Assembly (NCBI RefSeq): GCF_010882175.1
Contig: NZ_WKLH01000001.1
Span: forward strand, 124,001-188,000
Direction of reading: 5' to 3'
DNA: 64,000 nt
From: Mangrovibacterium lignilyticum
GTDB lineage: Bacteria > Bacteroidota > Bacteroidia > Bacteroidales > Prolixibacteraceae
Positions 3,900 to 40,242 of this stretch are shown one piece after another (the first letter of the stretch is position 1; each line of letters opens with the position of its first letter). A program made the translations under genes and the position numbers. The notes under the pieces are model-generated. The model saw only the letters and a list, made by a program, of their open reading frames with translations, was not told the origin of the DNA and made no database searches.

Positions 3900-3966
3900 C
3901 AAAAATATTCCGAATACAAGAATTACCCGGTAACAGCTTCGTCAAATACAGGTAACAAAATCGTCA
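3900..3966 (-). promoter_or_regulatory. Operator-promoter, site 1 (22-bp direct repeats plus -7 box)
   Basis: On the plus strand two 13-mers, AACAGCTTCGTCA (3932-3944) and AACAAAATCGTCA (3954-3966), start exactly 22 bp apart. CAAAAATA (3900-3907) reads TATTTTTG in gene sense, a perfect TAnnTTTG -7 box, 25 bp from the proximal repeat. The site drives GH43 and GH2, whose first ATG lies about 90 bp downstream of the -7 box. The same layout occurs at six other places, so this is the predicted target of the HTCS encoded at 13.3 kb. Confidence 0.75.
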
Positions 3967-4050
3967 AACCTTCTCTGGATGCAACGAGAAACGCTCCATC
4001 GCTGAAAATTCCGTTCAGAAGTCCTTCCTCAGTCCCTTACACACACTCCG

Positions 4051-4093
4051 ATAACAAGAAAGCTCACTTCCCGAATAGAGAAAGTAAGCTTTC
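4051..4093 (-). terminator. Rho-independent terminator-like hairpin
   Basis: In minus-strand sense GAAAGCTTACTT (from 4093) pairs with AAGTGAGCTTTC (ending 4058) across a 12-base loop. This gives 12 base pairs with one G-U pair, followed by a short T-containing tail (TTGTTAT). It lies 71 bp after the stop of the 43-codon ORF and would end transcripts coming from the right, before the GH43 promoter. Confidence 0.55.
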
Positions 4094-4163
4094 GGTAAAA
4101 TGCATTTTGAAACAAACTGCTTGTTATTTTACAGGCCCATCATTAATAAAAACGAATCTTCTT

Positions 4164-4295
4164 TTATTCGTTTTCAGATTCCAAATTACGAATGATCCAA
4201 TCCAGAGCCATATCTTTACGATGCAAGCGAATGGTTTTGACCAGATCTAAAAATTGGCGCAGTTTTGCTTTTGCTTTTAGTAAATATCTTCTCAT
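4164..4295 (-). CDS. Possible 43-residue basic small protein
   Basis: A short frame from ATG 4295 to TAA 4164 encodes 43 residues that begin MRRYLLKAKAKLRQFLDLVK and end RNLESENE. It is rich in Lys/Arg in the first half and looks like a single amphipathic helix with a charged tail. It is the only reasonable coding frame in the 800-bp gap between the broken TIM-barrel gene and GH43, and a terminator-like hairpin follows. No clear ribosome binding site is seen, as is common in this phylum. It could be a chance ORF. Confidence 0.35.
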   Translation of the reverse strand: MRRYLLKAKAKLRQFLDLVKTIRLHRKDMALDWIIRNLESENE

Positions 4296-4606
4296 TAAAA
4301 AATGGTTTAAAATAACGATCGGGAAATTCATATAGTCTTCCTTCCTCTAATCAATAATTTATCAGCCTTTAGTTTTTAAAGCACGAACTGATTATGGCTC
4401 TTAATAAATGCTGCTTTTTTATTGCTCCTCTGCTTGTGTTTAATTAAGGCCCGCAAGATAAATTTGATACATCGAGCTCAGTATTTCCAGCTGATTTGAT
4501 ATCGTCAGGTCAGCATATAACTCAGCAGAAAGAGATTAAAAAGAGTGATCAACCCAAATCCAGACTAAGAATCTGGAATAACAACCCAACAAAAACTGAC
4601 TATGAA

Positions 4607-7375
4607 TTAATGCTTTACGATTATTTTCTTAGTGATTACGCCTTCACTAGTGCTCAACCTTAACAAATAAATTCCGGTAGCTAAACCGGATACGTCCAGG
4701 TCGGTATTACCGCTCGATTTGATGTCGATATTTGTCACCACTGCTCCGTTCATATTGAGCAGTTGCAGGTCGGAGTAGTCTCTCTTACTAAATTCTGAAT
4801 AGGTGACATGCAGTATATTATCAACAGGATTAGGCCAAACTGATAAGTCGGTGTCATCCATAATCCGATCATACACATCGGTTGTCAAATCATCGTAAAG
4901 TCCTTGCACCTCGGTGGCTGACAATTGATAATTATAAATTCGGAAATCGTCAACTGCGCCTTCAAAAAATTTCTTTGTCGATTGATTAACGCCTATGTAG
5001 TTTATCATCGGGTTGAAATCAGAAGGGCGGATGGTTATATCTGTCGACTCAGCCACCTTTAAACTATTAAGATAGATCGCAGCACCATCGTTTCCGAGGG
5101 TTACCACCAGATGAACCCAGGCATTTGCGGACAGGGCAGATGCATTCAGTTTTTGTTCAACTCCATCATTCTTGATCGCCAACTGCATTTGGCCTGAAAT
5201 TGACGGCGAGAAGTACATATAATCGTCGGCACCATCGCTGAAACTAAATAAATACTGGCCAATAGAAAAACCGGCCCATTTCACCCAGGCAACAACTGAT
5301 ATTTCCTGTTGATTAGCAACTTCTTCCGATAACTGGACAAAATCGTTCGAACCATTTAGCGACAGGGCGTCAGTCCCTTGTCGGCCTGGAACAAAAGTAC
5401 CACCCTGAGCACCGGCATGGTTTAGGTTAGCTGTGTTATCCTTGGTATCTCCGTCGAATTTAAGGTATTCAACCAAATCATTTTCTCCCGTGGCACTTGC
5501 TGATACTTCTGCTGACTTGCCGGAACGGTTAAGTGAATGATCCACCGCTCTGACGGTATAAAAGTAAGGAACGCCTTCCTGCGTTGTATTGTCAACAAAA
5601 GCAGTGGTATTCACTGACCGGGCAATGGTATTGTAGGCACCACCTGCCGCCTCAGAACGTAAGATATCGTACCCTGCGACATCGGTTTCCGGACTGGCAG
5701 ACCACTCCAGCTTTACCGAGCAAGCGTTTCCTGTAGCTGCTAAATTTTCAGGCACACTGGGTGCATCAAACTCAACCTCTGCATCAATGGGCAGCAAGCG
5801 CCACTGCTGACTGTTGTCCCCTGTTTTCTCCCATTGCACAATATTTCCAGACTCGTCCGCTTGTACACAGTAGGTACTTTCTCTGCTCCGGATATAGAAC
5901 CAGCCATCCTCACTATATTCCAGATACCATTGTTGATTACCAGCCCCTCCATCATCCCACAGGCTGATTTTCCCACCGTTATCCAATGAGTAATTATACA
6001 AATCGAGTCTTCGGGTTGTGCTGGAACCGGGCCTGATGTGGTAATAACTGACATCATTCCCATATTTGGAAACTAAAGGGTTAATCGTCAACTGCTGAGT
6101 ATTCAAATCGGAAGGATCTGCCAAATAAACATTCGCTTCATTGTAGTCGCCAGCCACTTCCATCACCTTCCCGCTCTGACGGTTAACCAATTTATATGTA
6201 CCATTAATTGCCGGCTGGATATCTTCTCCCCAGCTAACATTGAACACTCGTTCTGCAAAATACTGGTCTGCTGTCATATAACCGCTTCCTCCCGGCAATT
6301 CCTTTACAAAATCATAGCGAGGCCCAACACCTTCAAAATAAACCGGTCTGTCCTTGGAGATAAAGCGATAAGTGGTCGTAGTCGCCTGGCGCTCTGATCC
6401 ACCCAAAAAAGCTTGCACCTTACCATCCGTTTGCCTGTAAACTGCAGCCGCAGTCCATTTCGGGCGATGTTCGGCATAGCCCAGTCTTACACCATTACAG
6501 GCTTTCACGAATTCACCGCGGGCCAGGTTCGCATATCCCCAGTAGATACCCGCCTGCAATCCATATTCCGCTCCAACAATGGCTTCCATGATATCGTGTA
6601 CTTCGTCATTCGTTGCATAATGACCGTTTGCCTTTACCGTTTGATAAAATGAAGCATAAGAATCAAAAGTACCAGCCAATTGATGGGTATTCCCCTCATT
6701 CACCCCTACCGGGAGACAATAGTTGTACCAATCGTAAGCAAAATCCGGATTTAAGGTGTTTCCACCACAAAAGCGAACGCCTTCAAAATAACCACTGTTC
6801 TGACAAGCTTCAAATAAATGATAATCATCGTCCATGGTTGCCGGGGCATAACCAGGGTCCGGTTCATTAAATCCGGTAATGGATACAACTGTATGACCGA
6901 AGCTTTCAACGTAGTCCTTGGCGAGTTTCATGAGCAGGGCATAGCGCGACCAATCCTGTCGATACCACAAATCATTATCATCTGCCCCTCCGGGGTTCAA
7001 CATAATCTGCATCGGAGCACCATCCGAGCCCGTCTCTGCCTGATCGATGCGGTCCTTGATCCAGTCTTTTTGCCATTGATTAAGCTCATTCCCATTTAGC
7101 AGGGTATCTCCGGGGAACGCGGGTATCCTTGTTATTTGCACATTTTCTACGCCCAAATAGCGCTTGCCCATTTCCCAAATACCGTAGTTTGTCCAACCTC
7201 CGGCATCCATTCCCCAAATCATCGGTTTGTAATCGCCAGTCCCAAAATAATCAAAAGTAACTGTTCTGTCAGCAACAGGTTGAGCAACTATGTTGTCACT
7301 CGTACTTACAGGTTAGGCAAAAGCACCGGTTATAGTACCCAAAAATAGAAATAGATTAAGTAAACTTCTTTTCAT
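4607..7375 (-). pseudogene. TIM-barrel hydrolase with RICIN, FN3, LamG and T9SS domains, interrupted at codon 21 (paralog A)
   Basis: The natural start is the ATG at 7375, which gives a signal peptide MKRSLLNLFLFLGTITGAFA. Codon 21 (7313-7315) is TAA, exactly where the paralogs have Gln after the cleavage site, and the frame then stays open for about 900 codons to 4607. Restart at the internal Met (7222) would give an 871-residue protein without a signal. Domains counted from the full start: clan-A-type TIM barrel with acid/base Glu171 in GFNEPDPG, beta-trefoil lectin with QQW motifs, FN3, LamG and a T9SS tail (LSVWPNPVDN). Its barrel differs clearly from that of the neighbour at 7.7-10.5 kb, while the C-terminal half is very similar. 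A CAA-to-TAA mutation or a sequencing error would explain the stop. Confidence 0.8.
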
Positions 7376-7465: not shown

Positions 7466-7532
7466 CTAAAATATTTCGAATGTTACAATTATCTGGTAAC
7501 AGCTTCGTCAAATACAAGTAACAAACCAGTCA
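7466..7532 (-). promoter_or_regulatory. Operator-promoter, site 2 (weakened copy) before paralog A
   Basis: Plus-strand 13-mers AACAGCTTCGTCA (7498-7510) and AACAAACCAGTCA (7520-7532) are 22 bp apart. The second has lost TCG of the TCGTCA core. CTAAAATA (7466-7473) reads TATTTTAG in gene sense, one base from TAnnTTTG, 25 bp from the proximal repeat. About 65 bp here resemble site 1 (both contain GGTAACAGCTTCGTCAAATA), so one arose by duplication of the other. Two functional elements have drifted, in keeping with the interrupted gene it serves. Confidence 0.6.
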
Positions 7533-7679: not shown

Positions 7680-10481
7680 TTAGTGCTTTATAATTACTTT
7701 TTTCGTGATCGATCCTTCGCTTGTCGTTAACTGCAGCATATAAACCCCCGAAGATAAATTTGAAACATCGAGGTCGGCATTACTGCTCGGTTTGATATTC
7801 ATATTCGTTACCACACTACCGTTCATATTGAAAAGCTGGAGCGTAGCAGAATCGCGTTTACTGAATTCGGAATAGGTAACATGCAAGATACTATTGGCTG
7901 GATTCGGCCAAACCGACAAATCGCTTTCTTCCATGATTTGGTCAAACACGTCAGTGGTTAAATCACCGTAAAGTGCAGTCACCTCTGTTGCAGAAAATTG
8001 ATAGTTATACACCCTGAAATCATCAATCACTCCGTCAAAAAACTTCTTTGTTGACTGATTAACACCGATATAATTAATCATCGGATTGATATCAGAAGGC
8101 CTGATAGTTATACCTGTCGACTCAGCAACCTTATCACCATTCAGATAAATCACAGCACCTTCGTCTCCGAGAGTTACCACCAAATGAACCCAGGTATTGG
8201 CAGATAACGCAGATGTATTCAGTTTCTGCTCAACGCCGTCCTTCTTGATGGCAAACTCCAATTGTCCGGAAAGGGACGGTGACAGATAGATATACTCACC
8301 GGCACCATTACTGAAACTAACTAAATGCTGACCAACTGAAAAACCGGCCCACTTCACCCAAGTAGCAATCGTAATTTCGGAATGACTGGCGATATCCTCA
8401 GGTAGCTGCACAAAATCACTGGAGCCATTTAACGATAACGCTCCGGAACCTTGTTTACCTTGAACAAATGTCCCTCCGTTCAATGCACCGTGATTCAGGT
8501 TAACCGTCTTATCCAGTGTGTTGTCATCATCAAATGTAAAATATTCGACCAAATCATTTTCCCCGGTAGCACTTGCAGAAACTTCTCCGGAGTAGGCTGA
8601 GTGATTCAAAGCTTGATCCACTGCTTTAATCTTATAGAAATAAGTGACACCTTCCAGCGTTGAATTGTCAACAAAAGCTGTCGCGGTTACATTTCTCGCA
8701 ATTGTATTGTATTCTCCTCCGGCAGACTCAGCACGTAAAATGTCGTAACCGGCGACATCAGTTTCAGAACTGGCCGTCCACTCCAGTTTAACCGACGCTG
8801 CATATGGAGTAGCAACCAAACTTTCCGGAGCGCTCGGAGCGTCAAATTCAACTGCGGCATCAATGGGCAGGAAACGCCATTGTTGACTTTCGCTACCATT
8901 CTTTTTCCATTGCACGATATTGCCATCTACATCAACGTCAATACATTTTGTGCTCCATCGACTACCGATATAAAACCAGCCGTCTTCATTATAATCCAGG
9001 TACCATTGTTGATTGGCACCACCTGTGCTTTGATATTGGTTTAATTCACCGCCATCTTCTAAAGACCAATTCCAAACGTCGGGCGATTTACTTGTATTTA
9101 CTGAGATGATCGAGTAATAGCTAAAGTCTCCCCCGATTCTGGAATTTACTGGAGTTACCTTCCATTGTTGGCTAGTGGAAGCTGAGGACGTAGCCAGTTG
9201 AATATTGGCCCCATTTGCACTACCAGCCACCTCGACCACCTGTCCGCTTTTCCGGTTGACTAACAGATACGTTCCATTGACCAATGGTTGCACGTCCTCC
9301 CCGGAGGTAATATTAATTACGCGTTCAGCATTGGTCTGACCTTGTCCATATCCCGTACCTCCGGGCATTGTTAATGCAAATACCCGCTGTGGTCCATAAC
9401 CGTCGAAATACGCCACCCTGTCCTTTGAGACAAAACTAAAAGTCGTAGTCGCAGCCTGTCTTTCAGACGTACCGCCAAAAGCTTGCACCTTCCCTTCAGA
9501 AGTACGATAAACTGCCGCGGCAGTCCAGTTATTTCGATGCTCTGCATAACCAATCCGCTGTCCGTCAAAAGCCTTAACCATTTGGCCACTGGCATAGTCG
9601 ATATCGGCCCACCAGATTCCGGTTTGCATGCCATATTCGTAACCGACGAGTGCTTCAACGATGTTATGTAATTCATCAAGCGTAGCATGGTTTCCATCTG
9701 CGGCAACCGTTTGAAGGAAGTTGGCATATCCATCGAAACTACCCGCTAACTGGTGGGTATTTCCTTCGTCTAATCGATCCTTTAAATAGTTGTACCACGG
9801 CAATGCCTCGTCACAATTCAATGTGTTGCCGCCGGAAATGCGTATATCGTTAAATCGTGTATTATTCCTCAATTCGCCGCATATATCATAAAAGGCAGCT
9901 TTACCATCGCCCCCCGCTGAATATTGATTCCACCCGTAATCAGGCTCATTAAACGGTGCTACTGAAACGACCGTGCGGCCTGCATCCTGAACATATTTTG
10001 TCGTTTGATCGATCAACTGTGCCCATCGGGCAGGATAATCCCGGTACCAGGCGTCAACACCATCGAAGCCAGACCCTGCCGGCGCATCATGATCACAATT
10101 TAACGCCACTGTTGTTCCCGTATTGGTATAATTATTAACGATGTCAATACGATATTGAAGTTCTTTTATTTGTTCTGTGGTAAGAGCGGTATCACCGATT
10201 AACGCCTCTAAAGGTGTAAACGACAACCTCGCCACATCTACCTGATCAATTCCCATAAACAGGACGGCACGACGAAAATTTGTTTCATCATCCCAAGCAA
10301 GATCAGGCCCAAATTCTACCGTTTTGGAAATGCCCGGGTCTGTCAGATCAAATGCCACATTTCGATCCGCAACCGGCTGCACAACGAGGTTGTCACTGGT
10401 GCTGGCAGTTTGCGCATTGATTCGGGGGATGCCAAATCCCAAAATCAACAATGTCACTGATAAAAGTATAGATCTTTTCAT
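7680..10481 (-). CDS. Secreted TIM-barrel glycosidase with RICIN, FN3, LamG and T9SS domains (paralog B)
   Basis: 933 residues, signal peptide ending INAQ. Order: TIM barrel (about 40-400) with acid/base Glu179 in PFNEPDYG, the NEP motif of clan GH-A; beta-trefoil lectin (about 415-560) with three QQW motifs; FN3 (about 570-665); LamG/concanavalin-type domain (about 675-850); T9SS sorting domain (about 860-933). I do not recognise a CAZy family for the barrel; the nucleophile may be the Glu in IVEALVGYEYG, but this is a guess. It probably acts outside the cell on a beta-linked glycan, held there by its lectin and LamG modules. It lies 170 bp from the GH2 gene and has no operator of its own, so it may be read from the promoter at 13.2 kb. 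Paralogs lie at 4.6-7.4 and 37.4-40.1 kb. Confidence 0.85.
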   Translation of the reverse strand: MKRSILLSVTLLILGFGIPRINAQTASTSDNLVVQPVADRNVAFDLTDPGISKTVEFGPDLAWDDETNFRRAVLFMGIDQVDVARLSFTPLEALIGDTALTTEQIKELQYRIDIVNNYTNTGTTVALNCDHDAPAGSGFDGVDAWYRDYPARWAQLIDQTTKYVQDAGRTVVSVAPFNEPDYGWNQYSAGGDGKAAFYDICGELRNNTRFNDIRISGGNTLNCDEALPWYNYLKDRLDEGNTHQLAGSFDGYANFLQTVAADGNHATLDELHNIVEALVGYEYGMQTGIWWADIDYASGQMVKAFDGQRIGYAEHRNNWTAAAVYRTSEGKVQAFGGTSERQAATTTFSFVSKDRVAYFDGYGPQRVFALTMPGGTGYGQGQTNAERVINITSGEDVQPLVNGTYLLVNRKSGQVVEVAGSANGANIQLATSSASTSQQWKVTPVNSRIGGDFSYYSIISVNTSKSPDVWNWSLEDGGELNQYQSTGGANQQWYLDYNEDGWFYIGSRWSTKCIDVDVDGNIVQWKKNGSESQQWRFLPIDAAVEFDAPSAPESLVATPYAASVKLEWTASSETDVAGYDILRAESAGGEYNTIARNVTATAFVDNSTLEGVTYFYKIKAVDQALNHSAYSGEVSASATGENDLVEYFTFDDDNTLDKTVNLNHGALNGGTFVQGKQGSGALSLNGSSDFVQLPEDIASHSEITIATWVKWAGFSVGQHLVSFSNGAGEYIYLSPSLSGQLEFAIKKDGVEQKLNTSALSANTWVHLVVTLGDEGAVIYLNGDKVAESTGITIRPSDINPMINYIGVNQSTKKFFDGVIDDFRVYNYQFSATEVTALYGDLTTDVFDQIMEESDLSVWPNPANSILHVTYSEFSKRDSATLQLFNMNGSVVTNMNIKPSSNADLDVSNLSSGVYMLQLTTSEGSITKKVIIKH

Positions 10482-10651: not shown

Positions 10652-13081
10652 CTATCGTCCGACAGCATTAATAATCAGTTCAGCATCCGGCAATTCGAGC
10701 GAGCTTACCTTTAATTTAAGTTCTCCCGGCTGTTGCGAGCTTTTAACAACAACCAATGCACGTCCCTTCCACGCCTTAGGTGTATGGCTGAAGTATGGAA
10801 TAGTATCTTTTAGATTGGCATTACCGGCTGCGGCAATAACTCCTTCTCCTTCAATACTGATCGCTAAACTATTTTCCGCATTGGGAAGTATATTTCCTTC
10901 AGCATCGGTAACTTCAATGGTAACAAACGATAAGTCCTGGCCATCAGCCTGTATCGCAGTTCGGTCCGCAATTAATTTAATTTGAGCCGCTTTGCCTGCA
11001 GTTTTCAGGCTGGTTGATTCCACCTCTTTGTTGTCCTCAACGCCCACGGCTGTAATCTTTCCGGGAGTGTATGGCAGCGTAAAAGTGGCTTTAAATTCTT
11101 GTTCCAAGCCGGTCGCTTGTTCTGAGACAAGTTTGTCATTCAGGTACAATCGAACTTTAGAATATTTCGAATACACCTCAATTTCAATGTCTTTCCCTTT
11201 GTAGCCCGGCCAGTTCCAGCTTTCCCAGGTTGGCCAAACAGCCCACATGGTTGTTTTGATCTCTCCTTCGGCAGGGTTTGGTTCCCGAACAGCCATATAG
11301 AGTTTTTCGGAATCATTCCAAAGCAAATCTCTGTAATGGGAAATTGGTTTTCTCCATCCGGTCAAATCAATATCGCCGCAATAGGCACCGTGCCAGGGAT
11401 AAAAATCTCTTTCCCAGTGCTGCCCTTCGGGATCTCCCGGGTAGTAATAACGACCAATACTTGACTCTCCAAGGTAGTCCATTGCCGTCCAAACAAAATC
11501 GCCGATGATGTAATCGTGGTTTTGGACCATATCCCAGTTATAAAATGCATCTTTCGGGTAAGATTCAGATTGAAAAACGATACGGGAGGGTACCCGCCTG
11601 TGATCAGCTTCGGCTTCATGCATCATGTAGTTGTACCCGCAAACATCATGTTCCGCCATCAATGGGTCAAATATCTCCCAACCTTCGTTCCACGAGGTCA
11701 TGGCCGAGGTCACCGGGCGTGTAGGATCAAGCTTCCGAATATAGCTGTTTAGCATTCGTGCGGTCTCAACAGCTTCCGGTTTTGTTCGCTCGATGATTTC
11801 GTTACCGCTGCTCCACATTACGATAGACGGATGGTTCCGGTCGCGCAGCACCATTGATTCGAGATCACGCTGCCACCATTCTTCGAGAATACTGGCATAG
11901 TCATGAGGTGTTTTCGCTACTCTCCAACCATCAAACGATTCGTCGATCACTAAAAGCCCCAATCGGTCACAGGCATCCAGAAATGCTTCGGAGGGTGGGT
12001 TGTGCGAAGTTCTGACAGCATTAAACCCAGCAGCTTTCAACAGTTCCACTTTCCGCTCTTCGGCCCTGTCGTATGCCGCTGCCCCTAAAATTCCATTATC
12101 GTGGTGGAGGCAACCGCCATTTAGTTTGATCTGTTCTCCGTTTAATTCAAATCCATTTTCTACACTATATTGAATTGATCGAATACCAAATGAATTATTC
12201 ACCACATCAATCGGTTCGTCACCCTGTTTGACAGTGGATTTGGCAGTATACAACAGCGGACTGCCCGGTGTCCACAAGGATGGATAGTTGACCGTAATAT
12301 TTTGAGTTATTTCCTTTTGGCTATTGGCTTCTAATTCAACGCTGAGTTCGTCATTTCCAACAGCAGCCCCATTATCATTTACAAGCTCAGTAGCCAGTTG
12401 GATGATTTGTTGTTTTCCGGTTTCGTTTTTGACAAGCGTTTTTACCTGCACAGTTGCGCTTTCATCGCTAACTTCAGGTGTGGTAATTGCAACACCCCAA
12501 TGATCGATATGAACAAGCGAATGTGCCATCAGCCATACGTGCCGATAGATCCCCGAACCACTGTACCAACGGCAATTCTTTTGTTGTGAATTATCGACCC
12601 GAACTGCAATCACATTTTCATGGCCAAATTTGATGTAGGGACTTAGATCATAATAAAATGATGTATATCCATAGGGATGCATGCCTACTGACTGTCCGTT
12701 GACAAATACTTCGGCACTCATATAGACACCTTCGAAGTAAATGGCTATTTTTTGGTCTTTCCAATCCTTTGGAACACTGAACGACTTTCGGTACCAGCCG
12801 ATGCCTGCCGGGAAATAGCCACCATCGTTACCTGTCGGATTATGCAAGGATATTTGCCCCTCAATGCTCCAGTCGTGCGGCAGGTCGAGTTGCCTCCAGC
12901 TGCTATCGTTATAATTCTCATTTCCGGCATCCGGATAATCTCCTAATGCAAATTTCCAGTCAAAATCGAATTTCTCTTTTCTTGCGACCTGCTCTTCTTT
13001 TTGATCGTTACCGGAAAAACACCCGGTCGCCAGCAGCGAGAGAAGCAGAGCAAAAGTCGAAAGCTTGAAAAGTCGTTTCAT
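10652..13081 (-). CDS. GH2 glycoside hydrolase (beta-galactosidase type), lipoprotein
   Basis: About 809 residues from ATG 13081, which gives a good lipoprotein signal (MKRLFKLSTFALLLSLLATGC, Cys21). A longer frame reaches an ATG at 13156, but that lies beside the -7 box at 13159-13166 and lacks a signal peptide, so it is rejected. GH2 order: sugar-binding domain, Ig-like domain, TIM barrel with acid/base Glu428 in SGNEIIER and likely nucleophile Glu506 in FQSESYP, then DUF4982-type and invasin-like Ig domains. It resembles the catalytic part of the large GH2 at 33.5-37.1 kb. It diverges from the HTCS gene and has a complete operator-promoter, so it is probably one of the most directly controlled genes of the system. 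Confidence 0.88.
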   Translation of the reverse strand: MKRLFKLSTFALLLSLLATGCFSGNDQKEEQVARKEKFDFDWKFALGDYPDAGNENYNDSSWRQLDLPHDWSIEGQISLHNPTGNDGGYFPAGIGWYRKSFSVPKDWKDQKIAIYFEGVYMSAEVFVNGQSVGMHPYGYTSFYYDLSPYIKFGHENVIAVRVDNSQQKNCRWYSGSGIYRHVWLMAHSLVHIDHWGVAITTPEVSDESATVQVKTLVKNETGKQQIIQLATELVNDNGAAVGNDELSVELEANSQKEITQNITVNYPSLWTPGSPLLYTAKSTVKQGDEPIDVVNNSFGIRSIQYSVENGFELNGEQIKLNGGCLHHDNGILGAAAYDRAEERKVELLKAAGFNAVRTSHNPPSEAFLDACDRLGLLVIDESFDGWRVAKTPHDYASILEEWWQRDLESMVLRDRNHPSIVMWSSGNEIIERTKPEAVETARMLNSYIRKLDPTRPVTSAMTSWNEGWEIFDPLMAEHDVCGYNYMMHEAEADHRRVPSRIVFQSESYPKDAFYNWDMVQNHDYIIGDFVWTAMDYLGESSIGRYYYPGDPEGQHWERDFYPWHGAYCGDIDLTGWRKPISHYRDLLWNDSEKLYMAVREPNPAEGEIKTTMWAVWPTWESWNWPGYKGKDIEIEVYSKYSKVRLYLNDKLVSEQATGLEQEFKATFTLPYTPGKITAVGVEDNKEVESTSLKTAGKAAQIKLIADRTAIQADGQDLSFVTIEVTDAEGNILPNAENSLAISIEGEGVIAAAGNANLKDTIPYFSHTPKAWKGRALVVVKSSQQPGELKLKVSSLELPDAELIINAVGR

Positions 13082-31863: not shown

Positions 31864-32553
31864 ATGAGTTTTGTAGACGATTTTCTCCTCTGGAAAGAGC
31901 GCATCGAGAGCGTTCCCGGGGATCAGTTAAAGCTGCCCAACCAACCGGTTGATGATTTTGCAGCAAGTGTAGAAACCCTGGCCATTAATGCCAATGAAGA
32001 TCGCGACACCCTGTCGGCCGCCGGTCTGGATGTGACAATCATTGACGATCTGGTGCCTTTATCGGGTGCTTTGCGTCACTGCCAGGCCATCTGGATGAGT
32101 GAATACCGGGCCCGCCAGGATGCTCAAAAAGAATGGCAGGCTCAGTCGCCCGCGGCCTATGCGATGCGCGACGAGCTGTTACACCATTTTGCGTTCGCTT
32201 ACCGGAAAGATGACAACATGCACAAAAAAGTGATGCGTATTCGCGAGGGAGAAACCAATGCTGATATGGTTCAGGACCTGATTGAACTGGCCGTATTGGG
32301 CGAAAAGTACCCAGAACCGCTGGTCGCGATTAATTTTGATCTGACTAGTCTGGAGCAAGCCCGGACCACTTCTTTCACCATGTCCGAATTACTGGCTGCG
32401 GCCAATGGTGCCGCTGGCGAAAGTAGCGCCAACAAACTGTTGCGTGACCAGGCATTCACCCTGTTGTCCGAGAAGGAAAGCACTGTCCGTGAATTTGGCA
32501 GGTATGTTTTCTGGAAAAATGAAGACAAACTAGCCGATTATTACAGAGCTTAA
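31864..32553 (+). CDS. Hypothetical protein, mostly helical, family not recognised
   Basis: 229 residues, acidic, no signal peptide or membrane helix, so probably cytoplasmic. It begins MSFVDDFLLWKERIESVPGD and contains PLSGALRHCQAIWMSEYRAR, DELLHHFAFAYRKDDNMHKK and a C-terminal STVREFGRYVFWKNEDK. The composition suggests a helical bundle. The coding sequence looks richer in G+C than the adjacent PUL genes. It stands alone on the plus strand between a hairpin-rich leader and a strong terminator, followed by a tandem array, and has no link to glycan use. It may be an independently acquired unit. I do not know a function. Confidence 0.75.
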   Translation: MSFVDDFLLWKERIESVPGDQLKLPNQPVDDFAASVETLAINANEDRDTLSAAGLDVTIIDDLVPLSGALRHCQAIWMSEYRARQDAQKEWQAQSPAAYAMRDELLHHFAFAYRKDDNMHKKVMRIREGETNADMVQDLIELAVLGEKYPEPLVAINFDLTSLEQARTTSFTMSELLAAANGAAGESSANKLLRDQAFTLLSEKESTVREFGRYVFWKNEDKLADYYRA

Positions 32554-32616: not shown

Positions 32617-32619
32617 GTG

Positions 32620-32922: not shown

Positions 32923-33471
32923 CTATGACTCAGACAATCTGATTTCAAAAACGCACCTTGTACTCCCCCGAATTACCGATTCAACGCATTTCGCTTCGAC
33001 CGTTTGCCCCAAAATCGTTTCATAGGTTTGCGTCTGCCAGCCAACCGAACATTGACAAATGGATTCCGACACATTTTTACTGTCGAACATGGGGCAAAAA
33101 CATTCCCGTTCCGCTGTTTCAACCCGAATGACTCCTCGCTCTTTATCAAAAGTGGCCGTCTCTCCCAAACTGTTTTTTAAATGTTCAAAGAATCCTTGAA
33201 GATTGTCTTTGTATTGTTCGACCTGGCTCCTTTTTGAACATTCCCGTCCGAGATCTTCCAGAATTTCGTTCTTCGTTTCCTCATCCAACGTTTCATCAAG
33301 AATGTCGATCAGCTTTGAAAACCGATGCTGCACAAATCCCTCTTTCCAGGATGTGGTATTACTTTCTTTTGTCAACAGTTCATTTCCGTGAAAAAGTGAG
33401 GGAAGAACACAGGAGCACATGCCAAGGCCACATGCTTTTTGAAAAAAACTTTTTCGATCCATTTTAGTCAT
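32923..33471 (-). CDS. Small cysteine-rich protein with an N-terminal export-like segment
   Basis: 182 residues. The start MTKMDRKSFFQKACGLGMCSC resembles the DRKSFF-type N-termini of Bacteroidota exported proteins; Met4 (33462) is an alternative start. The C-terminal half holds two paired-cysteine motifs, ECFCPMF and ICQCSVGWQ, and ends ESVIRGSTRCVFEIRL, an arrangement like DUF6144 or the L-2-amino-thiazoline-4-carboxylate hydrolase-like fold. That assignment is from memory and weak. The cysteines could bind a metal or form disulfides. It starts 45 bp after the large GH2 stop, in the same direction, but shows no other link to it. Confidence 0.7.
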   Translation of the reverse strand: MTKMDRKSFFQKACGLGMCSCVLPSLFHGNELLTKESNTTSWKEGFVQHRFSKLIDILDETLDEETKNEILEDLGRECSKRSQVEQYKDNLQGFFEHLKNSLGETATFDKERGVIRVETAERECFCPMFDSKNVSESICQCSVGWQTQTYETILGQTVEAKCVESVIRGSTRCVFEIRLSES

Positions 33472-33515: not shown

Positions 33516-36500
33516 TCAATGATGTATGAAAACTTTTTCCGTTTGAGTATTTTCGACATTACTCAATTTTAAAATATATGTTCCCGAGGGTAGATTACGA
33601 ACATTCAACTCCACCGGGGAAGTAGTACTAACGACCTCCGACATCATTAATCGGCCATCCAAATTGCAAATACTAAGTAAGCCAGAATTACCTTCGGAAA
33701 CTCCGGAATAAACGACATGAAGTATATCTCGAACCGGATTTGGATAAATACTCAGTTCGGTTTGTTTTGGGGCGGCAATTGGATCAGCCAGCGCGGTTGG
33801 GAAACTGTTGGCCCGGGCTGCGATTGTTTGATCGTCCATAATACCTTTGTAAATATTAAACTCGTCAATCGCACCGATCCAGCTTGCATCGCTGGCATAG
33901 CCGCTTTTGCACAAGTAGGCCAAGGAATTGTCTAAAAACTGGAGGGAATTATTGCTCGCCAGATCCACGCTTCCGACAAGCACACCGTTGATGTACCAAG
34001 TGATACGCTCGCTATTTATTGTACTTACAAGGTGGTAAGGTTGGCCATTATCCAGAGGATTGCTATTGACTCTAGTTTCGGCGCTCCAAGGAGTGGTTAA
34101 ATTGCCACAGGATATAGCAGCACTGCTGGACCCGCCATTTATCAGGGTCGTATAAAAATAATTTGTACCATACGCTCCCGTTGTTCCGCCGAAAAAACTC
34201 AGCATCGTATAATCCGGATTGTTGGAACCGGCCGTCACATAAGCTTCAAGGGTTATTGATGCATACGTGTTGATTGCTATTTTTTCGCCCGGCAATTCAA
34301 TGTAATCTCCTTGTGCCGACGCGATGTAGTCCCCACCAACCACAGAGCCGCCTACGATCGTACCGTCAGCTGAGCCAACCGTATCTCTGGCTGTTCCGTC
34401 GCTAAACGGATAAGAGTGCATCAATGTAAAACCGTCAACATCAACAATAAAATGGACGATATAGTCCGACGTGCTCAGTCCGTCTTGCGAGGTCACGGTC
34501 AACGTGACACTCTTCGTTTCCAGTACGTTTACGGAACCATTTCCTGCCACAGTTGCCCCTGAATAAGTGGGAACACCTGTCACTTCAACCGAAGTGGTTC
34601 CTGCAGGCAGGTAAACCGAATACTCTTTTTTATTTGGATCAAAAACCGGCTTAACTTCAGACAGCGACAGATTAATCGCCTTCAGAGTAGCATCGGCTGC
34701 TGCGCCTGAGCCTACCCGAAGCGTGATAGCTCCTCCGTTTTTGTCACTCTTAATCACAACCAAAGCCCGACCTTTCCAGGCTTTTCTGCTTGTAGCCACA
34801 TAGGGATCTGTATCCTTCAGATTGGCATTATCAACGCCAACAATTTCTCCTCCCCCTTCAACTTTAAATACCAGCTTATCTTCAGCATTGGGCTGTACGT
34901 TTCCTTCGTCATCGGTGAGCTCAACGGTTACATACACCAAATCCTGACCATCAGCCTGGATGCTCGAACGGTCGGCTGTTAGTTTAACTTTCGAGGCTGG
35001 ACCTGCTGTTTTCAGTGTTGTTGTTTCAACCTCTGCGCCTCCGTCAATGCCAACAGCTTTCAGTGTTCCGGGCTGGTATGGAACCGTGAATGTCGCTTTA
35101 AAAGCCTCATTTTGCGTTGTATTTTTCTCACCCAACAGGACATCATTCAGATACAAGCGTACCTTGGGGTATTTGGAGTAGATCTCAACATCAATATTTT
35201 GCCCCTCAAACCCATCCCAGGTCCAGCTCTCCCAGGTTGGCCAAACCGCCCACGAGGTCAGATTAATCTCGCCGTCGCCCGGATTTGGCTCCCGAACAGC
35301 CATATAAAGTTTTCGTGTGTCGTTGTATAACATTTCTCGGTAATACGAGATTGGTTTTCGGTGGCCGATTAAGTCAATATCGCCGCAATAGGCACCATGC
35401 CACGGGTAGAAATTTGCTTCCCAATGTTCGCCCGGGAGCTCACCCGGATAATAGTAGCGTCCAATGCCGGACTCGCCCAAATAATCCATGGCAGTCCATA
35501 CAAAATCGCCCAGAATGTAACTGTGCTGTTGAACCAAATTCCAATTCGAAAAGGCATCTCTTGGATAGGATTCTGACTGAAAGATGATCCGGGAAGGCAC
35601 TCGCGCATGGTCGTTTTCCGCTTCGTGTAGTTGATAATTGTAACCACAAACATCATGCTCTGCCATCAGCGGGTCGAATATTTGCCATCCTTCTCCCCAC
35701 GTGGTCATTGCCGAAGTCACCGGGCGGGTTGTATCAATCTCTTTAACGGCATCAGCCAACATTTTCGCAGTTGTCACAGCCTCAGCCGAGGTCCGTTCAA
35801 TGATTTCATTCCCGATGCTCCACATGATAATGGAAGGATGGTTTTGGTCCCGACGTACCATATCCTGCACATCTTGAACAGCCCACTCGTCAAAATAAAG
35901 GGCATAATCGTAAGGAGTTTTACTAACACGCCAGCCATCAAATGCTTCATCAACAACCAGTAGTCCCAGGCGATCGCAGGCATCCAGAAATGCCTCGGAT
36001 GGAGGATTATGCGATGTGCGAACGGCGTTAAAGCCAGCCGACTTGAGCAATTCAACTCTTCGCTCCTCTGCCCTGTTATAGGCCGCCGCTCCCAAACATC
36101 CGTTGTCGTGATGCATACAGCCGCCGCTGATTAACAACGATTTCCCATTGAGCTGAAAACCATTCTCCGCGCTAAATTCAATCGTACGTACGCCGAAGGG
36201 ATGGTTCGACTCATCAATGACATCGTTGTTCCTGATCACTTTGATTGTCGCATTATAACGTGTAGGAGATTCGGGAGACCACAATGAAGGATTAGAAACA
36301 ACAATCTCTTGATCAACGATTTGCTCCGAATTCGGAGCCAGTTGCACGTCAATATCATTGCTGCTATCACTCGTAATCTGCGTCGATAGGGTAACATTTT
36401 GAACCACATCTGTTGTGTTTTTCACCAAGGTCTTCACCCGAACGATCGCTTGACTTGAGCTCACTGAAGGTGTTGTAATACCAACTCCCCAATGTGGAAC

Positions 36501-37121
36501 ATGAACAGAAGCGGTTCCCAAAAGCCAAACATTTCGGTAAATACCGGAACCACTGTACCACCTGCTGTTTTTTTGTTGCGAATTATCGACACGAACAGAA
36601 ATCGAATTTTCACCATTCACGTCCAGATAAGGAGTCAAGTCATAACTGAACGAAGAGTAGCCATAAGGACGTTTGCCCAGGTAAATACCATTGATATACA
36701 CTTCAGCATTCATGTAAACACCTTCGAAATAAATCGAGACCTGTTTTTCCTGCCATCCGTCGGGAACTTGGAAATGCTTTTGATACCAACCAATTCCGGC
36801 TGGAAAATAACCGCCATCGTTGCCCATCGGGTTTGCCGGGTCCAATTCTCCTTCGATACTCCAGTCGTGCGGCAAATCAAGATCCCGCCAACCAGCATCA
36901 TCAATGGGAGTTGAGTCTGTAATTTGAAAATCACCCAATTGAAACCGCCAATCGAAATTGAAGAGTTTCTTGCGATCAGTATCACCATTTTCGGGAACTA
37001 CCGTATTGACCGTTATTTCTGTTTCCGGAAAATCGATGACCTCCCCGGTTTGTGTGCTTTGCGCAATCGAAAAGTCCACAAAAAACACCATAAAAGATAT
37101 CAATATTGTTATTTTCCTCAT
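33516..37121 (-). CDS. Large secreted GH2 enzyme with LamG domain and T9SS tail
   Basis: 1201 residues with a signal peptide ending FSIAQ. Order: a short linker, GH2 sugar-binding, Ig-like and TIM-barrel domains (about 45-600; acid/base Glu439 in IGNEIIERT, likely nucleophile Glu517 in FQSESYP), DUF4982 and invasin-like Ig domains (to about 800), a cadherin-like domain (VKPVFDPNKKEYSVYLPAGT, about 815-900), LamG (about 905-1115) and a T9SS sorting domain (LSIYPNPVRD, about 1130-1201). The GH2 part is close to the lipoprotein at 10.7-13.1 kb, so this is a secreted, multimodular version of the same activity. A terminator separates it from the gene before it, and I find no operator in its own upstream region. 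Confidence 0.88.
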   Translation of the reverse strand: MRKITILISFMVFFVDFSIAQSTQTGEVIDFPETEITVNTVVPENGDTDRKKLFNFDWRFQLGDFQITDSTPIDDAGWRDLDLPHDWSIEGELDPANPMGNDGGYFPAGIGWYQKHFQVPDGWQEKQVSIYFEGVYMNAEVYINGIYLGKRPYGYSSFSYDLTPYLDVNGENSISVRVDNSQQKNSRWYSGSGIYRNVWLLGTASVHVPHWGVGITTPSVSSSQAIVRVKTLVKNTTDVVQNVTLSTQITSDSSNDIDVQLAPNSEQIVDQEIVVSNPSLWSPESPTRYNATIKVIRNNDVIDESNHPFGVRTIEFSAENGFQLNGKSLLISGGCMHHDNGCLGAAAYNRAEERRVELLKSAGFNAVRTSHNPPSEAFLDACDRLGLLVVDEAFDGWRVSKTPYDYALYFDEWAVQDVQDMVRRDQNHPSIIMWSIGNEIIERTSAEAVTTAKMLADAVKEIDTTRPVTSAMTTWGEGWQIFDPLMAEHDVCGYNYQLHEAENDHARVPSRIIFQSESYPRDAFSNWNLVQQHSYILGDFVWTAMDYLGESGIGRYYYPGELPGEHWEANFYPWHGAYCGDIDLIGHRKPISYYREMLYNDTRKLYMAVREPNPGDGEINLTSWAVWPTWESWTWDGFEGQNIDVEIYSKYPKVRLYLNDVLLGEKNTTQNEAFKATFTVPYQPGTLKAVGIDGGAEVETTTLKTAGPASKVKLTADRSSIQADGQDLVYVTVELTDDEGNVQPNAEDKLVFKVEGGGEIVGVDNANLKDTDPYVATSRKAWKGRALVVIKSDKNGGAITLRVGSGAAADATLKAINLSLSEVKPVFDPNKKEYSVYLPAGTTSVEVTGVPTYSGATVAGNGSVNVLETKSVTLTVTSQDGLSTSDYIVHFIVDVDGFTLMHSYPFSDGTARDTVGSADGTIVGGSVVGGDYIASAQGDYIELPGEKIAINTYASITLEAYVTAGSNNPDYTMLSFFGGTTGAYGTNYFYTTLINGGSSSAAISCGNLTTPWSAETRVNSNPLDNGQPYHLVSTINSERITWYINGVLVGSVDLASNNSLQFLDNSLAYLCKSGYASDASWIGAIDEFNIYKGIMDDQTIAARANSFPTALADPIAAPKQTELSIYPNPVRDILHVVYSGVSEGNSGLLSICNLDGRLMMSEVVSTTSPVELNVRNLPSGTYILKLSNVENTQTEKVFIHH

Positions 37122-37290
37122 TTTTTAAAAGTTCAATGGTCTTTGTTCTCTTGCACCTCTATTTTAGTGGTTACTGTCTGTTTCCGGGCTATTATTGGCT
37201 GTTCAGCCTGCAAATCGTTGTACCGCAATTCTCAACGCTAAGCTGATTTGTGACAAATTCAGATCATTCGTTTTACCATCCGCAATCGGA

Positions 37291-37324
37291 AAAATAATCC
37301 TGCGAAGATTAACTCCGCAGGATT
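37291..37324 (-). terminator. Terminator for TIM-barrel paralog C
   Basis: In minus-strand sense AATCCTGCG and CGCAGGATT form nine perfect pairs around an 11-base loop (37324-37296), followed by ATTTT. It lies 45 bp after the stop at 37369. Confidence 0.85.
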
Positions 37325-37368
37325 AGGTTAGCGTGTTGTAAGACGGTTAACTTATCACGAACCAGGTT

Positions 37369-40107
37369 TTAGTTTTTAATTATTTTTTCAACGCGAACTA
37401 AGCTTGCGCCATGTTTTATTTTCAACATATAAACCCCCGACAAATACGAACTTAAATCTACTTGAGTAAGCGGATCAGAAAGTAGCCTATTTAGAAGTAT
37501 TCTACCTGATAAATCCACCAGACTGATATTAAAACCACCGGAATCACCTTCGATTTTAATCGTCAAGTAATCAGCTACAGGATTCGGAAAAATACTGACT
37601 TCACCGGTCACTTTTGTATTGCCAATTGTAGCACTTTTCAAAGCCGGGTTGGTGCAAGTCGTTTGATTTTGTGCAGGATCATAAGGAAGGCTGCTATAGA
37701 CCACGTCATCCACACAGAAATCCACAGTAGGTTTCTTGACGTAGGCTGATGTTTGGAAATATACGGTTCCGTCGGTTCCGGTTACACCTGCTACACTCTC
37801 ACTGAAAGAACCGCTGAATGTACCAGACACTGTTGCTCCGGCAATCGGGTTAAGTTGATCATCAACAATAGTAACCACAGCTGTGCCGTAATTACTCCCT
37901 TTGGGACCAGTTGCTGTTCCGGTAACGATCGATTCAACGGATATGGTCGTTGGATCTTGAGCTGCGATAACGGTAACATTGTATGTTACACTGCTCTCTG
38001 CGCCACAATCATTGGTATAAGTGGCAGTTGGTGAACAAGAAGTGGTTGACGTTACAGTTTGCTCACGTAAAGTACCTGAAGTACCGCATCCGTTCCAGAT
38101 CCAGGAACCACCATCTACAGGTTGCGGACCAAATGTAATGACATCCCCGGCATTGACCGTGAAATCAGTTCCGATTGTCCATGTACCATAGTTTATCTGG
38201 TAATATGGGGTAATTGTAGAAGGATCACAAACACCGGTAGCACCGGTTTCTAATGGCCCAACTACGCTGGTTTGGCCTGAACTGTTCAAAGAGGCATCAA
38301 CCGCCTTTATTTTGTAATAGTACTGAACACCTGCTTGTACATCTAAATCTTCATATGAAGTTGTTGTAACATTTCTTGCAATCGTATTGTATTCGCCTCC
38401 CGCAGCTTCAGCACGGAAAATAGTGTAGCCCGCCACATCTGATGCTGAACTTGCAGTCCAGTTTAAACTGATTGAAGATGAATTTCCTGTACCGACAAGA
38501 TTGGCTGGAGTATCAGGCGCGTCAAATTCGATCGGTGCACCTACCGGTATTAAGCGCCATTGTTGGCTGTTAATAGCGTCTTTTGCATTCTGGATAAGAT
38601 TGCCGTTTGAATCTACATCTAAACATTTAGAACTCTCTCTACTACGAATGTAAAAATATCCATCAGCGTTATAATCTAAATACCATTGATTGTTACCACC
38701 ATTCCCCATAGTCCATAAATCAATATTGGCACCATCATCTAAGCTATATCCATATAAATCCAATGAATAACGCGAACTAACCACCGGGCTAATTCTGAAA
38801 TAACTAAAATCACCGCCAATTCTTGAATCAACTGGAGTTACAGTCCATTGCTGAGTCGTTGTACCGGAATAACTACCAGCAATCACGTTTTCGCCATCCT
38901 TTCGACCAGTACCGTCCACCTGCATTGCTAAGCCGTTGCTGCGGTTAATCAGAATATAGTTTCCATCAATTACAGGTTGTACATCTTCACCCCAAGTAAT
39001 ATTAATAACCCGCTCAGCATTGGTCTGGCCATTCATATAACTTCCGACGGCACCACCAGGTATTTCCATGGTGTATTCGTAAGAAGGGCCATGTCCATCG
39101 AAAAATACCGCTTTATTTTCTGAAACAAATTTATAGCTAGTGGTCACAGCTTGTCTTTCTGAACTTCCAATAAAAGCCTGTGTTTTACCCTCTGGAGAAC
39201 GGTACACGGCTGCTGCAGTCCAGTTATCGCGATGTTCAGAATACGCCAGACGTTCACCATCCATCGCTCTTACAAGCTCTCCACTGGCATAGTCAATATC
39301 TGCCCACCAAATACCGGTTTGCATACCATATTCAGCACCAACCATAGCTTCCACAATATTATGTAGTTCGTCTCCTGTTGCATGATGCCCATTAGCCCTA
39401 ACACTTTGGTAAAAACTGGCAAAATCGGCGAAAGTACCACCTAGTTGATGCGTGTTTCCTTCATTGACACCCGCTGGCGTTAAAAAATCGTACCATCCCT
39501 GTGCCTCACTACAGCTCAACGTGTTACCACCTGAAAGTCTGACTCCACTAAAATAGGGATTGGCCGCTAACCTTTCAGTGACATAATACATATCCATATA
39601 ATTGGTGTACTGGTTCCATCCATAATCCGGTTCGTTAAATGCTCCCACTGTAACCACATTATGTCCGTCAGCTTCAAATGCCTGAGCAGTAACCTGAATA
39701 AGCTGTTCCCAACGTTCAGGGTGATCATGATACCATGTATCTACCGATGGGTGGTCGCAATTCAGTGTTAATTTAATATCTGGTCCAACATAAGTATCGA
39801 TCAACCAAATACGATAATTAAGGTCATTAATTTGTTCTGTTGTCAGATCCGTTCCATTAACCAGTGGATAAGTTGGTTGGAAAGAAGCCCTTACAATATC
39901 AATTTTATCAAGCCCCATAAATAATACGTTTCTACGAAATGCCTGTTCATTGGCCCAGGCAAGATCGGCTCCAAATTCTACTGGCTTAGATATTCCTGTG
40001 CCTTCTACATTGAAGGTCACCGTTCGGTCTGCAGTTGTTTGTGCATGGGCATTGGATATACCGGACCCAAGCAAAAGGATAAATCCTAAGAAAATAGATT
40101 TTCTCAT
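37369..40107 (-). CDS. Secreted TIM-barrel glycosidase with RICIN, FN3 and Ig-like domains and T9SS tail (paralog C)
   Basis: 912 residues with a signal peptide ending NAHAQ. The barrel (about 25-385) is close to paralog B (GISKPVEFGADLAWANE, FRRNVLFMGLDKID) and has acid/base Glu159 in AFNEPDYG. A beta-trefoil lectin with QQW motifs (about 395-545) and FN3 (about 550-640) follow. In place of LamG come a cysteine-containing carbohydrate-binding-like domain (GTWTIGTDFTVNAG, WNGCGTSG) and a Big_1-type Ig domain (GTAVVTIVDDQLNPIAGATV), then a T9SS tail (VSIFPNPVAD). The CAZy family is not recognised. It has a full HTCS-type operator-promoter although it sits in the sigma-controlled locus. Confidence 0.85.
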   Translation of the reverse strand: MRKSIFLGFILLLGSGISNAHAQTTADRTVTFNVEGTGISKPVEFGADLAWANEQAFRRNVLFMGLDKIDIVRASFQPTYPLVNGTDLTTEQINDLNYRIWLIDTYVGPDIKLTLNCDHPSVDTWYHDHPERWEQLIQVTAQAFEADGHNVVTVGAFNEPDYGWNQYTNYMDMYYVTERLAANPYFSGVRLSGGNTLSCSEAQGWYDFLTPAGVNEGNTHQLGGTFADFASFYQSVRANGHHATGDELHNIVEAMVGAEYGMQTGIWWADIDYASGELVRAMDGERLAYSEHRDNWTAAAVYRSPEGKTQAFIGSSERQAVTTSYKFVSENKAVFFDGHGPSYEYTMEIPGGAVGSYMNGQTNAERVINITWGEDVQPVIDGNYILINRSNGLAMQVDGTGRKDGENVIAGSYSGTTTQQWTVTPVDSRIGGDFSYFRISPVVSSRYSLDLYGYSLDDGANIDLWTMGNGGNNQWYLDYNADGYFYIRSRESSKCLDVDSNGNLIQNAKDAINSQQWRLIPVGAPIEFDAPDTPANLVGTGNSSSISLNWTASSASDVAGYTIFRAEAAGGEYNTIARNVTTTSYEDLDVQAGVQYYYKIKAVDASLNSSGQTSVVGPLETGATGVCDPSTITPYYQINYGTWTIGTDFTVNAGDVITFGPQPVDGGSWIWNGCGTSGTLREQTVTSTTSCSPTATYTNDCGAESSVTYNVTVIAAQDPTTISVESIVTGTATGPKGSNYGTAVVTIVDDQLNPIAGATVSGTFSGSFSESVAGVTGTDGTVYFQTSAYVKKPTVDFCVDDVVYSSLPYDPAQNQTTCTNPALKSATIGNTKVTGEVSIFPNPVADYLTIKIEGDSGGFNISLVDLSGRILLNRLLSDPLTQVDLSSYLSGVYMLKIKHGASLVRVEKIIKN

Positions 40108-40175
40108 AGTTTAGTCTTGATTGATTAGTTAGTTATTTACTTGTTAGGTAGTTTGATCTGTGTATTTCCAGAAGA

Positions 40176-40242
40176 CCAAGGTATTTACATTACCGATACT
40201 ATTCCGGCACAAGTTCGTCAAACACCGGTTACAAAATCGTCA
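40176..40242 (-). promoter_or_regulatory. Operator-promoter, site 7, before paralog C
   Basis: CACAAGTTCGTCA (40208-40220) and TACAAAATCGTCA (40230-40242) start 22 bp apart. CCAAGGTA (40176-40183) reads TACCTTGG in gene sense, one base off TAnnTTTG, at exactly the 25-bp spacing. The distance to the ATG is 69 bp. Confidence 0.7.

Follow-up and report, generated by a model that had tools for sequence, protein, structure and literature searches.

A 22-bp direct-repeat operator at seven promoters of one PUL in Mangrovibacterium lignilyticum and its probable HTCS regulator

Seven tandem pairs of a 13-bp element resembling TGACGAATTTGTG, with starts 22 bp apart, lie 5' of seven presumed transcription units of a single polysaccharide utilization locus (PUL) in the 64,000-nucleotide stretch of Mangrovibacterium lignilyticum DNA analyzed here (the window), and an HTCS that combines a propeller sensor, a kinase, a receiver and an AraC-type domain is encoded inside the same PUL. 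Judged from sequence, we consider the pairs to be the operators of this HTCS (13279-17382), seven operators that would switch on the whole PUL, with a probability of about 0.9; the HTCS is very probably their regulator, an AraC-type activator that acts from 5' of promoters with a -7 element only. The case is a well-supported further example of the direct-repeat operators known for HTCSs, and what distinguishes it is a one-base shift of the period to 22 bp. The predicted features are as follows.

3900-3966, minus strand: operator-promoter 1; distal copy 3954-3966, proximal copy 3932-3944, -7 box TATTTTTG at 3900-3907; GH43/32-like and GH2 unit (3808 to 257)
7466-7532, minus strand: operator-promoter 2; distal copy 7520-7532 (weak), proximal copy 7498-7510, -7 box TATTTTAG at 7466-7473; 4607-7222 (ricin-B, LamG, T9SS tail)
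13159-13225, minus strand: operator-promoter 3; distal copy 13213-13225, proximal copy 13191-13203 (weak), -7 box TAAGTTTG at 13159-13166; GH2 10652-13156, probably also 7680-10481
13252-13259, plus strand: candidate -7 box TATTTTTG for the HTCS gene, 26 bp away from the opposite end of operator 3
13279-17382, plus strand: putative HTCS regulator P0001; propeller sensor, Y_Y_Y, HisKA, HATPase, receiver with SHIP loop, AraC-type HTH_18
17588-17653, plus strand: operator-promoter 4; distal copy 17588-17600 (weak), proximal copy 17610-17622, -7 box TAACTTTA at 17646-17653 (23 bp gap); 17732-20719 (LamG, CBM4_9, T9SS tail)
22566-22632, minus strand: operator-promoter 5; distal copy 22620-22632, proximal copy 22598-22610, -7 box TACATTTG at 22566-22573; GH30 21016-22491
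31108-31174, minus strand: operator-promoter 6; distal copy 31162-31174, proximal copy 31140-31152 (both equal to the consensus), -7 box TAGATTTG at 31108-31115; SusC-SusD-PKD-PKD (30949 to 22825)
40176-40242, minus strand: operator-promoter 7; distal copy 40230-40242, proximal copy 40208-40220, -7 box TACCTTGG at 40176-40183; 37369-40107 (ricin-B, T9SS tail), probably also GH2 33516-37121 and 32923-33471

A preliminary description of the window had reported seven pairs with this period and a reversed motif at 17.6 kb, and both observations are confirmed: the pair at 17588-17653 is on the plus strand and the other six are on the minus strand, operator 3 occupying the divergent gap ahead of the HTCS gene. 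Summed over both 13-mers, the mismatches to TGACGAATTTGTG at the seven sites are 0, 2, 3, 4, 5, 5 and 7, the weakest copies (four mismatches) being the distal ones starting at 7532 and 17588 and the proximal one starting at 13203. When all spacings from 13 to 60 were scanned in the window, pairs with at most four mismatches occurred at spacing 22 alone (four pairs), and at up to seven mismatches there were seven pairs at 22 and at most two at each other spacing. With a matrix built from the window's 14 copies alone, and then kept fixed for all other genomes, the seven pairs score 29.9-45.5 bits, compared with a mean of 11.4 and a maximum of 22.4 bits for the best lag-22 pair in dinucleotide-shuffled windows (n = 100); as the matrix was trained on these sites, the other genomes provide the fairer test.

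By pattern search, the pair with its box is confined to this PUL. A degenerate pair pattern matched six places in the 5.63-Mb genome at up to two mismatches, all inside the PUL, and twelve at up to three mismatches (the seven sites, one overlapping shift and four places elsewhere; two for the backward control). The four outside matches overlap ORFs, named from their translations as a CTP-synthase-like gene (at its start; 13.2 bits), an ECF sigma gene (20.6 bits), a glycosidase-like gene (8.6 bits) and an acyltransferase-like gene (0.3 bits), and none has a -7-like box 20-28 bp downstream; a motif common throughout the genome away from PULs, which the preliminary description had named as refuting its proposal, was therefore not found at this threshold. 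Near 13 other HTCS-type genes of the same genome, among the matches listed, the motif reaches at most 11.4 bits.

Conservation in orthologous loci, which the same description had suggested checking, was found: in eight other genomes, each with an ortholog of the HTCS, the fixed matrix detects a further 21 pairs that score 15 bits or more and are followed by a box at 22-26 bp. Five of the 21 come from G128, G137 and G142, whose stretches were fetched after the matrix was fixed and were picked by HTCS position alone; five others lie in stretches that are not blind, as they were fetched after the pattern had matched there (L149, L150 and L151 of G002 and L156 of G053). At the 15-bit threshold, the window and ortholog stretches together hold 31 lag-22 pairs, 28 of them with a box; the three without comprise one pair in G027 (27.4 bits), one in G128 (16.4 bits) and the window's overlapping shift. 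By comparison, no pair with a box was present around 80 distant named HTCS loci (1.48 Mb) or in 60 paralogous HTCS stretches (1.16 Mb), and it is the occurrence of such pairs in the ortholog genomes and in none of these 140 control stretches (2.65 Mb) that makes the window HTCS so probable a regulator. The genome-wide pattern (at most two mismatches) agrees: among 100 relatives, 60 are family members, within which ortholog status was searched, and the pattern occurs in 6/6 with an ortholog and 4/54 without (backward control, 9/54); 4/40 order-level relatives have one match each. In G001, of the same genus, the best match to the HTCS (33%) falls short of the cut for an ortholog, the pattern is absent, and none of seven HTCS stretches scores above 12.3 bits.

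The conserved pairs recur at corresponding places. Homologs of the operator 1 gene carry the pair in G002, G053 (two places) and G128, and at 21 bp in G003; susC-like genes in G002 and G003 carry it as at operator 6; and at eight of the nine ortholog loci a pair of at least 15 bits lies upstream of the HTCS gene and points away from it, the gap before the G128 gene holding no convincing pair (9.6 bits). The gene that follows several of the sites in other genomes matches none of the window's proteins, and the ortholog loci also contain individual pairs with a box at a small number of other lags. Sites in the more distant genomes are degenerate, with no pattern matches at up to two mismatches in G137 and G142, and counts at up to three mismatches, against the control, of 6 vs 6 in G137, 7 vs 3 in G142 and 3 vs 6 in G128. 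The orthologs in G027, G043 and G053 are 62-65% identical to the window HTCS in the DNA-binding domain, compared with 42-43% over the whole protein and 54-59% in the receiver. In a tree of 149 of 162 receiver-domain ORFs (13 were dropped by coverage or length), the five placed orthologs form a single clade with support 0.999; only five of the nine are included because the G002 ortholog was among those dropped and those of G128, G137 and G142 were identified subsequently. As to possible autoregulation, the HTCS gene of three genus genomes (window, G002 and G003) has a perfect TAnnTTTG of its own at 25-26 bp from the intergenic pair's far end, and none was found within 200 bp of the HTCS start in the six more distant orthologs; HTCS genes are described as typically constitutive and expressed at low level in the available text of PMC6874557.

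All seven window sites have a TAnnTTTG -7 box, four of them perfect and three with one mismatch, as in the Bacteroidota primary-sigma promoter, for which the accessible part of PMC7366714 gives a -7 TAnnTTTG with a -33 TTTG; unlike in that promoter, the usual TTTG place is empty here and a repeat copy stands further upstream instead. Between the proximal copy and the box there are 24 bases at six window sites and 23 at 17.6 kb, equal to the 25 and 24 bp given previously, which were counted as a step; over all 28 pairs with a box the gap is 24 in 24 cases, 23 in two and 25 in two. A TTTG 15-23 bp 5' of the -7 box is absent from all 28 sites, so that the missing -33 box reported earlier is real, but as a mark of an activator it is weakly informative because only 45/471 generic noncoding -7 boxes (~10%) have a TTTG at 18-21 bp. 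Because the proximal copy stops 24 bp short of the box, a bound protein would cover the position of the missing -33 element or lie immediately 5' of it. At other HTCS promoters, 18/470 boxes have a TTTG 35 bp before the -7 box, and a TTTG-like word stands another 21 bp upstream in eight of these and another 20, 22 or 29 bp upstream in four each; that a TTTG 35 bp 5' of the -7 box marks other HTCS promoters in common is suggestive only.

The 22-bp period belongs to this ortholog group. In the window and ortholog stretches, 28 pairs with a box (at least 15 bits) have a period of 22 and three of 21, one of the latter (24.7 bits) preceding the GH43/32-like gene of G003. Lag 22 as a general HTCS rule was rejected, since a motif-free test on the 140 HTCS stretches gives 21 bp: before noncoding TAnnTTTG boxes, lag 21 was counted at 26/277 boxes in the 80 distant stretches and 15/193 in the 60 family stretches, compared with 10 and 3 for lag 22, 8 and 2 for lag 20, and 3-8 and 1-5 for lags 17-19 and 23-27. 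The distant-set count of 10 at lag 22 slightly exceeds the background range at this loose threshold and falls to 1 at a stricter one. With the box read backwards, lag 21 gave 5/144 and 3/135 and lag 22 gave 5 and 5 (noncoding); the noncoding counts are relied on because, once coding DNA was included, the backward-box control rose at several multiples of 3. In the window and those ortholog stretches that were then known, lag 22 was counted at 12/61 boxes and lag 21 at two. It is possible, although we would not bet on it, that HTCS promoters across Bacteroidota share a rigid plan, with one copy at a near-constant distance from the -7 box and a second 21 bp further up, and that in this ortholog group the second copy has moved to 22 bp, accompanied by corresponding protein changes; if so, the shared plan and its one-base shift would amount to a natural experiment in spacing recognition by an AraC-type dimer carried on a phosphorelay protein. 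An explanation by linker length is not supported: the receiver-to-domain linker has 56-57 residues in the five aligned orthologs (mode 55 among the aligned ORFs, 85/149), and 57 residues also occur at the lag-21 loci L085 and L171.

The earlier proposal of the HTCS at 13.3 kb as regulator, with a shared operator and a PUL-wide regulon, is supported by the confinement of the pairs, their presence in orthologous loci, their co-occurrence with the ortholog and their absence from paralogous stretches, whereas the kind of operator was already known. As far as the available text of Ravcheev et al. 2013 (PMC3878776) goes, Bacteroides HTCS operators are direct repeats at a mean distance of 21 bp, read as binding a dimer on one DNA face. 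The present operators share with them an AraC-type HTCS and direct repeats, spaced by about two turns, that precede PUL operons, susC included; they differ in organism, in motif, in a fixed distance to the -7 box (of which that text makes no mention) and in period, mostly 22 bp as against the mean of 21 and site plus spacer sums of 21, 21 and 20. The period is not exactly 21 bp here, and because the published figure is a mean, 21 bp is not treated as a defining feature. The window HTCS lies outside the 16 B. thetaiotaomicron regulators for which the 2013 work predicted motifs, and the analysis yields for it a 35-bp code together with a distance of 24 bp to the -7 box, supported by nine genomes. 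In receiver/AraC-type domain order, SHIP loop and susC-type promoters it resembles B. thetaiotaomicron BT4124 and BT4663, for which the portion of PMC11253607 at hand reports gel-shift data on promoter binding; the operators here are known from sequence alone. The words 'direct repeat' and 'spacing' do not appear in the main text of PMC11253607 as available, and the accessible parts of PMC12125979 and PMC11501099 contain nothing on HTCS repeats.

Linkage alone is no proof, and with 109 tblastn-type matches of all kinds to the window HTCS in its own genome, a stand-alone AraC-type protein or another HTCS could in principle bind the pairs, the HTCS at 13.3 kb being merely a neighbor. We regard this as improbable, given that the pairs with a box follow the HTCS ortholog in nine genomes, that the pattern is missing from the same-genus G001, and that the 13 other HTCS-type stretches of the genome (among the matches listed) are without the motif. 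It is very improbable that the pairs act as repressor operators, or in both ways, so that the HTCS or some other protein would keep the PUL silent without substrate. HTCSs that deviate from an S/CHIP-DK motif have been proposed to bind without phosphorylation and BT2391 is reported as repressing, both in the available text of PMC11253607, but the window HTCS has the SHIP loop, linked there to phosphorylation-dependent binding, and the copies are placed 5' of the -7 box rather than over it, at a fixed distance, as expected for activation. That the repeats are chance or codon-driven periodicity chosen by eye has a negligible probability: some multiples of 3 are raised in the backward-box control with coding DNA, but the sites lie outside long ORFs and have a period of 22, and in later-fetched genomes the same matrix again detects such sites, compared with none with a box in the control stretches.

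The proposed activation by the HTCS can be placed in a scheme. In class II activation by AraC-type proteins, two half-sites in the same orientation lie about two turns apart, the proximal one near the -35/-33 region; the half-site geometry here is alike (geometry only), with a membrane-bound phosphorelay protein in place of a soluble sugar-binding one. In the scheme that we infer (binding, phosphorylation, direction of regulation, transcription starts and unit boundaries alike), the HTCS, by analogy with published HTCS work, would sense an oligosaccharide in the periplasm and phosphorylate its own receiver, which would free the AraC-type DNA-binding domain. Two such domains would then occupy the two 13-bp copies in the same orientation, about two helical turns apart, and the HTCS on the proximal copy would recruit RNA polymerase that carries the primary sigma factor, in the manner of class II activation. 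The entire PUL, whose seven units lie between 257 and 40107, would be turned on from the seven operators. The scheme predicts the target units of the PUL, and the contrast between 21 and 22 bp is easily tested.

The target proteins offer hints to the substrate. A PDB sequence search gave no match for the GH43/32-like protein. The GH2 protein at 257-2752 matches beta-galactosidase models and the GH30 protein matches glucosylceramidases and an endo-1,6-beta-glucanase model, the beta-galactosidase and glucanase matches being below the cut-off. The ricin-B domains of two target proteins match a chain named Ricin B lectin (3vsf), an entry that we take to be an exo-galactanase. A beta-galactan or arabinogalactan would be our guess for the substrate.

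The window (contig C8:124001-188000, part of a 5.63-Mb genome) has SusC/SusD pairs, T9SS tails and an HTCS, which suggest Bacteroidota as the phylum. Its features that concern us here are as follows.

257-40107: one PUL, encoding GH2, GH43/32-like, ricin-B/LamG proteins with T9SS tails, the HTCS, GH30, SusC, SusD and PKD proteins
13159-13225 (-): operator 3, a pair plus box in the divergent gap between the GH2 and HTCS genes
13279-17382 (+): HTCS, a sensor-kinase-receiver-AraC-type protein, the proposed regulator of the pairs
40505-51148: a second PUL, whose SusC/SusD set is accompanied by GH42, FecR and an ECF sigma factor

All seven pairs of 13-bp copies reported in the preliminary description were found at their positions (3900-3966, 7466-7532, 13159-13225, 17588-17653, 22566-22632, 31108-31174 and 40176-40242), and the 22-bp distance between copy starts was confirmed, such pairs occurring at no other spacing among 13-60 at the strictest threshold. 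The gap from the proximal copy to the TAnnTTTG-type -7 box is 24 bases at six sites and 23 at one; four of the boxes are perfect and three carry one mismatch. With transcription units grouped by strand and gaps, the pairs head seven presumed units that make up the whole PUL minus the HTCS gene and ORF 31864-32553. This ORF inside the regulon (229 aa, without a Pfam match) lies on the strand opposite to its neighbours and has no pair. At operator 3, the first ATG of the GH2 ORF (13156) falls only two bases past the -7 box (window 13154-13166), and translation therefore probably starts further into the ORF. A perfect TATTTTTG box (13252-13259) precedes the HTCS gene, separated by 26 bp from the far side of operator 3, and the related genomes G002 and G003 have it in the same arrangement (at 25-26 bp); one pair might be shared by the two divergent promoters.

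The pairs are not common across the genome away from PULs. A degenerate pair pattern with up to two mismatches occurred six times in 5.63 Mb, always in the PUL, and with up to three mismatches 12 times, four of them outside; all four overlap ORFs and none has a box. As one of these scores 20.6 bits (on a matrix built from the 14 window copies), the pair score alone is no proof, and the box is what separates real sites from other pair matches. Stretches surrounding 13 other HTCS-type genes of this genome, among those listed, peak at 11.4 bits. The second SusC/SusD set directly adjoins the HTCS regulon without any pair, the matrix scan giving none of at least 14 bits in the window past 40242.

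Conservation in orthologous loci was borne out. At a cut of E up to 1e-230, nine of 140 family genomes (this one included) encode an HTCS ortholog, with 79-81% identity to the window HTCS in G002, 72% in G003 and 42-43% in G027, G043, G053, G128, G137 and G142. The G002 ortholog is split in two frames near residue 450 (stretch L147, contig C328), by a frameshift or an assembly error. Scanning stretches from the eight other genomes with the window-built matrix (at least 15 bits, box at 22-26 bp) yielded 21 new pairs with a box (G002 7, G003 2, G053 3, G043 3, G137 2, G142 2, G027 1, G128 1), of which five lie on stretches fetched because of a pattern match (L149, L150, L151, L156) and five, from G128, G137 and G142, on stretches picked by HTCS position only. 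The same scan gave no pair in 1.48 Mb from 80 distant named HTCS loci or in 1.16 Mb from 60 family HTCS stretches; with the box requirement dropped, one and two pairs appeared, respectively. Across all 28 pairs the gap is 24 bases in 24, 23 in two and 25 in two.

Operators also recur before corresponding genes: susC-like, and GH2 adjoining the HTCS, in the window, G002 and G003; GH43/32-like in the window, G002, G053 (two places) and G128, and in G003 at a 21-bp period. A pair upstream of the HTCS gene and directed away from it is present at eight of nine loci; the best score there in G128 is 9.6 bits. In G053 the second GH43/32-like gene with an operator (L156:10221) is on contig C26 and the HTCS ortholog on another, so that regulation over a distance may occur in this genome.

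Among 60 family members, the strict pattern matched in 6/6 with an ortholog and 4/54 without, and a backward control pattern matched in 9/54 without. G001, of the same genus, has neither an ortholog at the cut used nor a pattern match. The strict pattern is weak in the later three genomes (one match with up to two mismatches in G128, none in G137 and G142), where sites appear with matrix plus box.

The preliminary description had also taken the lack of a -33 box at normal spacing as expected of an activator. The lack itself held at 28/28 sites, with no TTTG 15-23 bp upstream of the -7 box; it fits activator-dependent promoters without proving them, and is little informative because generic noncoding boxes rarely carry TTTG at 18-21 bp (45/471, or fewer than 3 expected in 28).

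Repeat spacing was examined in a motif-free test for 13-mers repeated at lag 17-27 upstream of noncoding TAnnTTTG boxes. The window and first-fetched ortholog stretches show an excess at lag 22 (12/61 boxes; two at lag 21), whereas 140 other HTCS stretches show a clear excess at lag 21 (41/470; 13 at lag 22), at a similar repeat-to-box distance. A 15-base test, over lags 20-23 only, gave 29 cases, of which 21 fell at lag 21, five at 20, two at 22 and one at 23. The HTCS ortholog group of the window is thus a 22-bp variant, though not strictly so: a 21-bp period occurs in three box-bearing pairs scoring 15 bits or more, among them the 24.7-bit operator of the G003 GH43/32-like promoter (L143:10770), whose TAnnTTTG box follows at 24 bp. 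Direct repeats for HTCSs were already predicted in 2013 (PMC3878776), and their published mean distance of 21 bp agrees with the lag-21 excess in the 140 other stretches; in vitro binding of HTCS fragments to promoters of susC-type genes is reported in PMC11253607. Within excerpts of open-licence literature on HTCS repeats, promoters and transcription starts, neither a fixed repeat-to--7 distance nor a 22-bp period was found. Comparative support for the putative HTCS operator is strong, and its apparent deviation from the known spacing is small and testable.

The five orthologs in the tree (5/9) form one clade with support of 0.999. In G027, G043 and G053 the DNA-binding domain is 62-65% identical to that of the window HTCS, compared with 42-43% for the whole protein and 54-59% for the receiver. 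The domain identity would be as expected if the DNA code were kept; that of the receiver is above average too. Linker length does not account for the 21 to 22 shift. Strong 21-bp direct repeats (13-15/15 identical) precede TAnnTTTG boxes in stretches L041, L079, L164, L171 and L213, and are candidate operators of other HTCSs.
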